From Tetradesmus obliquus (taxonomy: Eukaryota; Chlorophyta; Chlorophyceae; Sphaeropleales; Scenedesmaceae): 64,000 nucleotides of DNA. Below are positions 88 to 53,800 of this stretch, in pieces. A program made the position numbers and the translations under genes. Below the pieces are notes generated by a model. It saw only the letters and a program-made list of their open reading frames with translations. It did not search any database and was not told the origin of the DNA. Location: NCBI GenBank assembly GCA_030272155.1, contig CP126204.1:4021501-4085500 (forward strand). The letters run 5' to 3'. Numbering within the stretch: position 1 is the stretch's first letter; each line of letters opens with the position of its first letter.

Positions 88-1090
88 CTCACCGTAATAG
101 CGGCAGACACGGCTGTGCCGATGAACAGTGCCAGCACCAGGCTACACTACACTTGCCGAAATAGCCATGCAGCCACTCCTAGCATTGTCGCAATATAGCA
201 TAGCATATACACTACTCCAACAGCAGCAGGCAACCTCAGCAACAGTGGCAGCTGCACCGCTCACTGTGATGGCAGCAGACACGGCTGTGCCGATGAGCAG
301 TGCCAGCACCAGGCTTGCATTGCGCATCAAGGGGCTGCTAAAAGATCTACACACCCTACCTATTTCATATGCTGTGTATGCCAACCACTGCATCTGAACC
401 AGGAAATGCACCTGGGTCACCAGCATACCATAAAAGTGGTGTGCCAGCCATTATCTATATCTAATAGTTGCCATCTGCAGCTCATGACTCACTGTTATGG
501 CGGCAGACACGGCTGTACCGATGAAAAGTGCAAGCACCAGGCTCGCATTGCGCATGAAGGGGCTGCCGAAAATCTCAATGATGACGATCATGCTGAAGGT
601 GAAGAAGCCCAGCCCAATGTAGGGGCCGCTGCCTGCATAATCAAGAGACAAGATTATGCAGGGATTATGTGTGACATAATCAGCGCAGATCATTAGCACC
701 GCATGAAGGGGCTGTTGAAAATATCAACGATATCATCCATGCTGAAGGTGAAGAAGCCCAGCCCGATGTACGGCCCGCTGCCTGCATAATCAAGAGACAA
801 GATTATGCAGGGATTATGTGTGACATAATCAGCGCAGATCATTGGCACCGCATGAAGGGGCTGTCGAAAATATCAACGATATCATCCATGCTGAAGGTGA
901 AGAAGCCCAGCCCGATGTACGGGCCGCTGCCTGCGTCATCGGAACCCAAGGGTAACACACAGACACAGCATAAGCAATGCAGATCATTAGCAGCGCAGGG
1001 AGGGGCTGCCGAAGATGTCAATGATGACACTCATGCTGAAGGTGAAGAAGCCCAGCCCGACGTACGGCCCACTGCCTGCGTATTCAAGAG
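88..1090 (-). repeat. Tandem partial copies of NCS2 exon 7
   Basis: The 5' half of exon 7 (GSGPYIGLGFFTFSM region) occurs four times on the minus strand, anchored at about 612, 761, 910 and 1055 (spacings 149, 149, 145), each with its acceptor AG and some intron. The 3' half (NASLVLALFIGTAVSAAIT region plus donor GTGAG) occurs three times, anchored at 103, 275 and 503 (spacings 172, 228). Only the copy at 493-632 has both halves joined. The others are truncated exon ends embedded in intron sequence. Confidence 0.85.
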
Positions 1091-50828: not shown

Positions 50829-53800
50829 GTTGAACCAAATGATATTCAGGCAATCCTGGTGTACCTCACGCAGTGGATTATGCAAAGCTCGCCTAACCTG
50901 TTCGTATCCTTGCACACCTGCAGTTTTGGGCACCAGGTGCCTATCCTGTCCGACGAGGCGCTAAATGAAGCCTTGAGCTACTTTGATGAACAGCAGCAGC
51001 AGCTGGGTGGTGATGCAGCAGCAGGAGCCTGTCAGCTGCTGCTGTACCCCATCCAGGGTCCTCCACCCTGGTCTCTGTCAGAGTACTTGGCGGCAGTGCA
51101 GCAACAGGATGCCGCAGACGGCGAGGCACAAGATACCAGCAGCAAGGAGCATGATCAGCAGAAGGGCCAGGCAGTAGTGCAGCCATCCCAGCAACACGAG
51201 CCTCCAAAGGGCCAGGCAGCAGCACAGCTGCCGCAGCAGCAACACCAGCAGCAGCTGCAGCAGCAAGGGGCGCCGGTTGCACCACTGCAGACACTCCAGC
51301 CAAGTGGCACCAAACATCACCAACAGCAGCAGCACCAACAGCAGCAGCAGCAACAGCAGCAGCAGCAGCAGCAGCAGCAGCAGCAGCAGCAGCAGGCACT
51401 GCCTCCATCTGCGGGTACTGCTCAGGGCCTGCCACCAGCTGCCGCTCCAGCAGCAAATGCAGCAAATGCAGCAAATGCAGCAAATGCAGCAAATGCAGCA
51501 AGTGCAGCAAGTGCAGCGCTGATGCCTGGCGCACAGTTTATTCCTGTGCTTGTGCCTGTGGGTGGCCAGCAGGTGCTGCTGCAGTTGTTGCCTGCAGCTT
51601 GCTTGCGGCAGCTGCAGGCGCGGCCGCTGCCACTGCCGCTGTCGCCGCCGCCGCAGCAGCAAGTGGGCGGGGGTCTATCGCGGCACGCGTCTCTGTCTGT
51701 CGCTGCACCCGGTGTGGCTGATAATGCTGCTGCAGTGAGCTACTCCAACTGCAGCAGCCCTGTCAGGACAGCGCGACTGAGCAGCACCAACAGCTGCGGC
51801 ACTCTGCTGCAGCAGCAAGAGCTGCGGCAGCGGCATAATGCTGGTGTGCATAGGGGTATGGCCGGTTGCTATGCGGCTACTGGGCTGTCTGCAGCAGCAG
51901 CAGCAGCAGCAGCAGCAGCAGCAGCAGCAGCAGCAGCAGCAGCAGCGTCAGCTACTGCCTCGCAAGCTGTGGAATCTGCTGGCCGCCGCCAGCAGCAGCT
52001 GTGGACGCCAGGCGCCATGCAGCAGCTGCCACTAGCACCAGCACAAGTTGTGCTACCACCACCAGCAGCAGCAGCAGCAGCAGCAGCAGCAGCAGCAGCG
52101 GTGGCTGGTGTGTTACTGGGCAGTCCAAGTGTCGAAGCAGCAGCAACAGCAGCAGCACCACCAGCAGCAGCACTGCCCAGAGCTGCACGCGGCACCAGCA
52201 GCAGGGCGCCGGATGGTGAGTATTGCTGCCCCGCCAATCCTGCATAATGTCTGCATGCGTGCAGGGCCCAGGAGCAACAAATCTGGTTGTTGAGGCAGGA
52301 CATGCTAATTGTTTGATGGCTGCTGCATGTTAGATGCGCCCGCACCCAGCCTGTCCTGCAAACTGCAAATTGTCCTGCATTGCAGCCTGCAGCAAGAAAC
52401 TGGACAGGCCTTTGAAGCGGCACACAGCCGTGCTCTTTTCACATTTCGCCCCTTTCCTGATTCATTTGCAGCATCCCAGTTCTTTGCTGCACTGTGCTGC
52501 CCACAATATCTTGCCAAACCAATATCTAAATAGGACGATTCTAGGCATGGTAAAAGCATAACCAATATCAGGTGCAGGGCACAGCCTCGACCCGCAGCAG
52601 CACGCGCTGCGCCTGCAGTCCATGGCAGCACCATGCTCCTTAGACATGCAGTCACCTCATCCATCCCGCTGCACTGTGATGACTGCACCCTTCCCTGCTG
52701 CAACCTGCTGCTGCTGTTGCCGCAGGGCGCTGCCTGGACCCGCAGCAGCATGCGCTGCGCCTGCAGCACATGCAGCAGCGCGCAGCAGCGCTGTTTGGCG
52801 GGGCAGTGACTCAGCACTGGCGCATCCTTGATCACAAGTGCATTCACTGCCAGCTGTGCATGAAGGATGTCACACCGTATGCAGCATACCACCCTGACTG
52901 CCTCAGGTTGGTGCCAATTTTTGTGATATTGTTAAATGCAGCTGTGTTGCGGGCAGCTGGCAATCTGCAGTGGGTTGCTAACAGCTGCAGCCCATAATAT
53001 ATAAGTACATGCTTCTGCTGCATTTGACTTAGCTGACCAGCCACGCCTGCCGTGTTTGACCAGGCCACACCAAGTAGGTTTGGCCAAGACAGACCAGCTG
53101 GGTTTGACCCCAGCCACTCCGCAACTCGCAATGTTCTGCCTGCCTGCCTGCCTGCCTGCCTGTCTGCCTGCCTGCCTGCCTGCCTGCCTGCCTGCCTGCC
53201 TGCCTGCCTGCCTGCCTGCCTGCCTGCCTGTCTGCCTGCCTGCCTGCCTGCCTGCCTGCCTGCCTGCCTGCCTGCCTGCCTGCCTGCCTGCCTGCCTGCC
53301 TGCGTGCCTGCGTGCCTGCGTGCCTGCGTGCCTGAACCTGTCTACTGCCCTTCTGCTGTGCAGGAAGCACTTCATCCGGCACCACGAGGTACGCGCAAGC
53401 AGGCTCACTTCCTCCACATATGTGTGCTTCAGCTCGGCGCTTGTTCTCTTTTGAGATAGGATAGTTACGTGTGGGTCCTGGCACCATATTGACCTCTTTG
53501 CAAGCATGCTACGAGCATGCTTCAGAACCCCCAGCACCGCGCCAGCACAGCAGCACTGTCCAACACAGCAGCGTTGTTGGGGCAGTCCAGTGGCCATTTT
53601 GGTGCATGGTGATGTTCGCGCATGCCCATGCTCACTCATGACATCCACTTGCTTGTGCCGCCTGTGCTGCTGGTGCTGCTGTTGCAACTTTGGTTCATCA
53701 GGACGTGCTGAGGGCTGCAGGCATTGACGTGCTGAGCTGGTGCAAGGGCATTCAGCTGGGGAAGCGCAAGCTGGCAGCCCTGCAGCAGCAGCAGCAGCAG

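Follow-up and report, generated by a model that had tools for sequence, protein, structure and literature searches.

Local direct repeats in Tetradesmus obliquus gather at exon-intron borders, where a piece of the exon edge recurs together with its splice site as a decoy copy inside the adjacent intron. These border-centred repeats are real and extend past the window in which they were first noticed (the whole 64-kb stretch of DNA, C14:4021501-4085500). Because the border copies lie far above the expectation for random duplication, they suggest a mutational habit that is aimed at exon-intron borders and makes introns grow.

Sample and gene models

The sample comprises 314 kb, made up of the window with 10 kb of its left flank, 100 kb each of contigs C1 and C3 and 40 kb of contig C6, and represents about 0.3% of the 104.66-Mb, 17-contig genome. 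The genome has a GC content of about 57% and its genes are intron-rich. Gene models are ab initio and come from a gene finder trained on the sample itself, which returned 32 genes with 446 exons (median 135 nt) and 414 introns (median 268 nt). The mean intron is 376 nt long, with 12.9 introns per gene model, some of the models being probably fused; the values tabulated for Tetradesmus obliquus are a GC content of 57, a mean intron of 462 and 7.8 introns per gene (PMC5966456). The splice consensus from an earlier round of gene finding is CAG/GTGAG at donors and CTGCAG/G at acceptors, where the slash marks the junction. Since the finder takes some decoys for exons (probably at 849-930, 700-777, 17059-17115, 17532-17594 and 16656-16688, for example), counts within arrays are approximate. 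An Rfam search, a tRNA scan and a plasmid search returned nothing.

Repeat arrays and exon-intron borders

Self-BLAST detected 232 pairs of direct repeats at most 1.5 kb apart (100, 70, 55 and 7 in the four pieces of the sample), and none in a shuffled-sequence control. Local repeats cover 17.6, 10.4, 7.9 and 1.9% of the four pieces and group into 104 arrays over the 314 kb. By TRF and self-BLAST, the arrays of the window lie where the preliminary description had placed them. Of all arrays, 91 were assigned to the border or intron classes. A predicted junction is spanned by 62 of these, another 17 end within 5 nt of one, three hold exon interior and nine are without any exon copy. The remaining arrays are exonic (seven) or intergenic (six). 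An exon edge is reached by 79 of the 91, a count in which a junction-spanning call needs 10 nt on both sides of the junction, an edge call adds the arrays no more than 5 nt away, and some arrays have both copies overlapping predicted exons. When the arrays were shifted rigidly, 41.1 ± 4.5 were expected to span a junction, compared with the 62 observed.

A repeat unit has about the length of an exon or intron, so many border duplications are expected by chance alone, and neutral duplications were therefore implanted as a control. A set of 300 was placed in repeat-free stretches and passed through the same pipeline, on the assumption that selection removes any duplication that lies within an exon or covers an entire exon or intron. 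Of these implants, 132 fell on borders or edges and the other 168 in introns. The pipeline recovered 283; it called 280 of them border or intron, and 116 of the 280 border. The simulated border share is 41-44%, whereas the observed share is 0.87 (p ~4e-17 against 0.44), and only 3 of 160 detected intron-only implants were miscalled as border. Self-alignment, which had been put forward beforehand for the whole genome as a check for a border excess and was run here on the 314 kb, shows such an excess.

The cleanest test of the pattern is a junction scan, in which the 50 exon nt beside each junction were sought in the same intron, for introns of at least 200 nt. These 50-mers recur at 47 of 280 acceptors and 29 of 279 donors, and at none of the 280 acceptors or 279 donors when random introns are used. 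The reverse complement recurs at 0 acceptors and 1 donor, and the other flanking intron holds a copy in 2 of 262 acceptor and 9 of 261 donor cases. For the control stretches, recurrence was found in 7 of 185 and 4 of 172 cases with an exon stretch 60-109 nt inside, and in 14 of 289 and 17 of 289 with an intron stretch about 8-57 nt from the junction. Beyond the window and its flank, junction 50-mers recur at 29 of 226 acceptors and 19 of 226 donors; the pattern is therefore independent of the stretch where it was first noticed, in keeping with the earlier suggestion of a wider habit. Among 96 exon-intron pairs, in which pairs from one array are not independent, the copy lies in the adjacent intron in 79, on the upstream side of the exon in 45 and on the downstream side in 34, and most of these copies touch the matching splice site. 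The upstream and downstream labels follow from which copy holds the exon; the informative part is the adjacency and the contact with the matching site.

Arrays in the window

The preliminary description counted arrays in seven of nine genes. Our scan places them in six of the nine models that lie at least partly in the window, and model 45069-56487 looks like two fused genes (cystinosin-like and Cys/His), which would give the seven. The genes recovered by the gene finder fit the names given there. NCS2 permease, Moco sulfurase (an aminotransferase class V gene) and cystinosin (a PQ-loop gene) are supported by Pfam, which matched six of seven typed proteins above cut-off (NCS2 permease, Clp protease, PMSR with FKBP, aminotransferase class V, PQ-loop and epimerase). 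The AP2 match is below the curated cut-off, the query being a partial, partly misjoined hand-typed copy. Membrane protein, exonuclease and Cys/His protein are putative names kept from that description.

In the NCS2 permease gene (minus strand), an acceptor array (551..1153) repeats the exon start GPYIGLGFFTFSM with a period of ~145-149, and its last copy (538-628) continues the permease. The same gene carries donor decoys of exon 1552-1775 at 1342-1439 and 1244-1290 (1238..1649, offsets 210 and 308) and a donor decoy of exon 538-628 at 310-347 (offset 228), the latter with related repeats in 88..575. The serine/alanine-rich gene on the plus strand, the membrane protein of the earlier naming, has an acceptor repeat (7010..7242, offset ~112-134) whose decoy has lost its AG, and an acceptor array (9413..9714) with decoys 9422-9460 and 9548-9586 of exon 9676-10127 (offsets 254 and 128).

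The putative exonuclease gene (minus strand) has several such copies. A donor decoy at 15345-15386 (15339..15504) is 95% identical to the edge of exon 15463-15631 at offset 118, and its filler is single-copy in the genome. An acceptor array (16291..16830) holds five copies around CAG/GTGCGCTGGTACC with a spacing of 115-120 and two unlike filler families, and a donor array of four copies (17053..17863, period 232-241) occupies, in our reading, the opposite end of the same intron. An acceptor decoy is found at 19416-19462 (19291..19475, offset 125).

On the plus strand, the AP2-like gene has a donor decoy at 32588-32626 (32483..32636, offset 105) and three further donor decoys (33689..34063). 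These lie downstream of exon 33627-33720 at distances of 116, 230 and 338, the second with 32 identical exon nt, and the first filler of this array is single-copy in the genome. The intron with these three decoys also holds acceptor decoys 34150-34194 and 34251-34294 of exon 34369-34506 (34150..34412, offsets 219 and 118). A last group of acceptor decoys (35284..36007) lies 248, 500 and 645 upstream of exon 35929-36313.

The aminotransferase class V gene (minus strand), which has diverged relatives on contigs C5, C8 and C9, contains a border repeat (39535..39895, offset 147) with the donor GT lost (GC), a multi-copy array (41565..42371) of the exon end VLAWLGVDPQEYVV spaced ~135-184, and an acceptor decoy at 42594-42716 (42371..42725, offset 223) with 123 exon nt. 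The plus-strand PQ-loop gene has a donor decoy at 45995-46038 (45870..46038, offset 125, GT lost), and the Cys/His protein gene, also on the plus strand, an acceptor decoy at 52578-52629 (52574..52777) of exon 52726-52906 at offset 148. Two further arrays, 55978-56473 (26 bp) and 34739-35272 (56 bp), are minisatellites and were set aside, and the array at 22700-23455 is largely exonic.

Copies had been described with 30-100 exon bases and the AG or GT, and the decoys of the window indeed hold 16-123 exon nt, most with AG or GT. The periods given (108-150 and ~240) come close to the distances in the sample, which run from 87 to 172, then from ~207 to 308, then higher. Read by eye, the NCS2 and exonuclease arrays also agree with the claim that one copy joins in phase, the copy nearest the exon body being in frame.

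Elsewhere in the sample, six junctions of the ClpP gene on C1 carry decoys. Its best Pfam stretch aligns residues 111-251 to positions 12-152, which are equal lengths, and spans two decoy-bearing introns; those decoys therefore lie outside the protein model there. The model appears to repeat exons near its end (four Pfam stretches).

Spacing and anatomy of the decoys

We identified 120 decoys, 69 at 47 acceptors and 51 at 30 donors. Their distances fall into 64 at 87-180, none at 181-206, 38 at 207-310 and 18 above, and the best offset period is 123-127, with a coherence of 0.54, where 1000 sets of uniform offsets reached at most 0.34. Acceptor decoys nearer than the copied edge plus 30 nt are invisible to the junction decoy scan, and BLAST pairs, which are free of that limit, likewise begin at 87. 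Single-step distances are 121.4 ± 15.1 at acceptors (n=35) and 123.0 ± 18.4 at donors (n=23), with an exon part of 49 nt and 43 nt, respectively. Where a junction has one decoy, it lies at 87-172 in 37 of 46 cases, and constant-period head-to-tail units are seen in multi-copy arrays.

Decoys occur at both ends of 18 introns, against 4.2 expected under independence, and decoy load varies strongly between genes (p ~1e-7, decoys taken as independent). The load is uncorrelated with GC3, a weak proxy of expression (rho 0.09), and a coupling to transcription is therefore without support here.

Homology on the intron side, in tandem register, is found in 30 of the 61 single-step decoys and absent in 31. 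A rerun with other random controls gave 28 of 61, divided into 20 of 33 decoys whose edge has diverged by 10% or less and 8 of 28 with more divergence. Among short-extension decoys (26 acceptor and 23 donor, so chosen, and not independent within an array), similarity stays above the permuted level to ~9 nt past the splice site and is at baseline at 13-30 nt (0.246 and 0.278 versus 0.274 and 0.259 permuted). The outermost copies of arrays often stop at the splice site. Homology is regained farther out in 17 of 55 short-flank decoys, where 0.2 are expected, several of them via neighbouring array copies, and spacing is alike in short- and long-flank decoys (121.7 and 118.8). One young 119-bp unit, read by eye, consists of 45 nt of intron and 74 nt of exon, with ATCAT at both breakpoints. 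At an exon at 47573 on C3, the inner pair is 79% identical over 192 nt and the outer pair 100% over 64 nt.

Intron length

Introns with decoys have a median length of 488 nt, versus 246 nt for those without. When the stretch from the exon to the outermost decoy is subtracted, a median of 251 (IQR 154-359) is left, versus 246 (165-370) in decoy-free introns (p 0.25). For decoy-free introns of at least 150 nt the median is 287, not 246. Median regression over introns of at least 150 nt gives a length slope of 98 per decoy (bootstrap 66-108), and only 50 (4-95) among decoy-bearing introns alone. In our reading, an otherwise ordinary intron has gained the array at its exon side, which fits the intron growth by local duplication proposed earlier.

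Decoys as non-coding DNA

Mismatches between edge and decoy amount to 7.0, 6.8 and 18.4% at the three codon positions and to 14.6% in intron columns, in a set where pairs from one array are not independent. We ascribe the third-position excess to silent change in the active exon, to which GC-rich third positions (79% GC) perhaps add. Differences private to the decoys are likewise biased to the third position (60, 65 and 132), as sequential copying from a changing exon, but also coding constraint, would explain.

Over 1604 codons the decoys contain 15 stops; drift at the rate of each individual pair would give 10.4 ± 3.1. Of the exon-side indels, 24 of 26 are not multiples of three, indels per substitution number 0.05 in the edge versus 0.165 in introns, and array offsets are divisible by three in 39 of 104 cases, without a strong excess. 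On these marks, the decoys behave as non-coding leftovers; coding constraint, as on duplicated alternative exons, was rejected because stops are not depleted and indels mostly shift the frame. Where the alignment reaches the edge, AG is kept in 50 of 56 and GT in 42 of 47 decoys, with fair site scores, which we estimate to be about what drift of this size predicts. Judged by their sequence, decoys may possibly act as alternative splice sites.

Origin of the border copies

We think it somewhat probable that a recurrent tandem duplication of ~120 bp is concentrated on borders, where the spare edge is tolerated in the intron and is then expanded and eroded. Local DNA duplication with a preferred step of ~120-125 bp would fall disproportionately on exon-intron borders, each event copying the splice site along with some 25-100 nt of exon edge. 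Of the outcomes, selection would retain only those with an intact exon edge joined in frame. The spare edge would become an intronic decoy, downstream for donors and upstream for acceptors, and the duplication would be tolerated because this edge falls into the intron. Decoys would then drift as non-coding DNA while further rounds of duplication of the ~120-bp unit take place between edge copies, and each copy would lengthen the intron by about 100 bp or more.

The copies, their excess at borders, their adjacency and spacing, the longer introns and the non-coding drift are direct observations. Tandem duplication as the primary event is what we infer from them; it is clear in young arrays and in places where intron-side homology survives. 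More speculatively, the starting point might be nicks or breaks that occur in pairs close to exon edges (e.g. from polymerase pausing over splice sites), followed by fill-in and end-joining. A local duplication with a ~120-bp step is likely the primary event; the border preference, the 125-bp quantum and the flank-less decoys lie beyond this explanation. Against plain tandem duplication, 31 of 61 single-step decoys, and 6 of the 15 youngest, are without the intron-side homology expected at that age. When tandem duplication is simulated with ageing, whether conversion is included or not, in crude models with chosen thresholds, the border share is 0.44-0.50 versus 0.87 observed, and the short-flank exon edges diverge by 12-20% versus ~8% at codon positions 1 and 2.

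A bolder and less probable reading, which we hold only tentatively, is a splice-site-guided DNA duplication, coupled to transcription or splicing, that would copy edges to 6-9 nt past the site with a ~125-bp quantum and be a major source of intron growth in the lineage. Anchoring of the duplications at (CAG)n, also suggested earlier, was dropped: a simple repeat lies within 20 nt of the inner decoy end in 4 of 61 cases, against 5% in the control (p 0.55), and is somewhat more frequent within fillers (6.5 versus 2.3%). Fillers made from an inverted template were rejected (1 of 26, control 1 of 26), and 8 of 26 fillers have a same-strand relative within 1.5 kb. All three fillers tested in whole-genome searches are single-copy and thus give no hint of a mobile element, and mobile fillers were rejected as well.

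Untargeted duplication is improbable. Tandem duplications would strike at random, and conservation of the exon would let those on borders persist and remain recognisable for longer. With median exons and introns of 135 and 268, near the unit length, a border share of 41-44% is indeed expected anyway; ageing without conversion predicts 46-50%, however, against 79 of 91 arrays observed, and simulated short-flank divergence at positions 1 and 2 is 19-20% instead of ~8%. The nine intron-only arrays, 78-100% identical in their best pair, are not especially young either.

We are equally doubtful of a copying step limited by the splice site (a templated insertion or an RNA-templated step), which would transfer the edge with 6-9 intron nt and leave the intron flank behind. 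The fading of similarity ~9 nt past the site in the 26 acceptor and 23 donor decoys, the 31 of 61 decoys without flank homology and the outermost copies that stop at the site speak for it. However, insertion of the edge only should, we reason, leave a shorter remainder, whereas the intron minus its array is an ordinary intron, and the equal spacing of short- and long-flank decoys and the homology regained farther out also speak against it.

Slightly less probable still are old arrays whose decoys are repeatedly converted by the exon, so that edges look young while intron flanks saturate. Outer copies are sometimes closer to the exon than inner ones, as at the C3 exon, and unlike fillers of equal length within one array can, in our reading, be taken the same way. 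In a crude simulation, however, conversion leaves the border share at 0.44-0.50 and yields a third-position excess of 1.1-1.6-fold versus the 2.7-fold seen, and gene conversion as sole cause was rejected.

Selection for decoys as alternative or regulatory splice sites is quite unlikely: the retained AG and GT, the fair site scores and the scarcity of edge indels would suit it, and the undepleted stops, the frame-shifting indels and the offsets without a strong excess of multiples of three would not. An artefact of gene prediction or assembly is very improbable. Ab initio models do sometimes call decoys exons and the ClpP model seems to repeat exons, but the simulated pipeline bias is small, the best ClpP Pfam stretch keeps equal lengths across two decoy-bearing introns, and decoy divergence varies, unlike that of assembly duplicates.

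Relation to known processes

Tandem exon duplication with mutually exclusive exons places exon copies beside an exon. The arrays share this arrangement, but as a rule one edge only is copied, and it drifts as non-coding DNA. In intronic minisatellites (VNTRs) the tandem units are independent of gene borders, whereas 79 of 91 arrays here reach an exon edge; head-to-tail units of constant period occur in the multi-copy arrays, and 31 of 61 single-step decoys show no intron-side homology. The arrays resemble intron gain by tandem duplication of AGGT in that splice-site sequence is duplicated. The preliminary description had considered this route to new introns, but its signature (an intron length close to the repeat offset, with the donor mapped on or near the acceptor) occurs in 3 of 414 introns, none convincing, and we regard these as incidental.

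In the potato RdRp gene, a tandem genomic duplication across the acceptor border puts exon sequence in an intron (PMC4974935), and the decoys would have arisen in a like manner. That is a single case in which a new intron was made, whereas here an old intron lengthens, at 47 of 280 acceptors and 29 of 279 donors and with a preferred step. Small tandem duplications by fill-in of staggered breaks are an established class (CST / Pol alpha-primase, PMC8355091); these local, size-limited direct duplications from paired nicks are similar and offer a possible molecular route. The passages of that work drawn on here contain neither a border preference nor a 125-bp quantum, both of which are present in our data. 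The staggered-break signature itself, with both flanks and short microhomology, is clear in the young array, and flank homology is absent in 31 of 61 single-step decoys. Introners are a recurrent process that reshapes introns genome-wide (PMC9860276, in the part cited), and the arrays recur and reshape introns in a like manner; unlike introners so described, the fillers are single-copy (three of three searched) and the copies derive from the exon next door. In the open-licence literature, at the level of titles and abstract openings, we recognised no description of this border-repeat pattern.

Gene annotation suffers from the decoys, which are readily called exons, as in the models used here. 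If the proposed origin is true, the lengthening of introns and their accumulation of decoy splice sites could be measured along this route, whose length quantum is open to testing in strains. If the border preference is mutational, a feature of exon edges (pausing, nicks, chromatin or RNA) would be imprinted on the genome, and its echo could be sought in other genomes.

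Border repeats and related loci

The load of decoys, in which an exon edge and its splice site are copied into the adjacent intron, varies strongly from gene to gene. In one of the pieces of other contigs sampled for comparison (C6:3000001-3040000, L022-L025), border repeats were found in only a single gene model (FKBP plus PMSR), near the end of the model. An acceptor array of the putative exonuclease gene (window 16291-16830) has its exon-edge copies separated by two dissimilar filler families that alternate and are nearly equal in length.

The aminotransferase class V gene has matches to its exons at three loci on other contigs (C5:4357408-4359878, C8:409945-411055, and C9:4281531-4283417), with identities that range from 69 to 77% over the three. 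These loci are likely diverged paralogues of the gene.

Tandem repeats in the window

Several predicted introns carry repeats. One in the AP2-like gene encloses an entire 56-bp minisatellite (9.6 copies, 34739-35272), another holds about 50 copies of the tetranucleotide CTGC immediately upstream of an exon (53136-53334), and a third contains a long, degenerate CA/CG-rich tract with weak internal repetition (31040-32285). A 273-bp tandem repeat at the end of a leucine-rich gene model (22700-23455) is largely exonic, and its unit length is a multiple of three. An 18-bp unit is perfectly repeated 5.1 times at 37297-37388. Finally, the array at 55978-56473, about 19 copies of a 26-bp unit that are 100% identical, is a minisatellite of very recent age; its flank recurs at 56630-56762 with 91% similarity.
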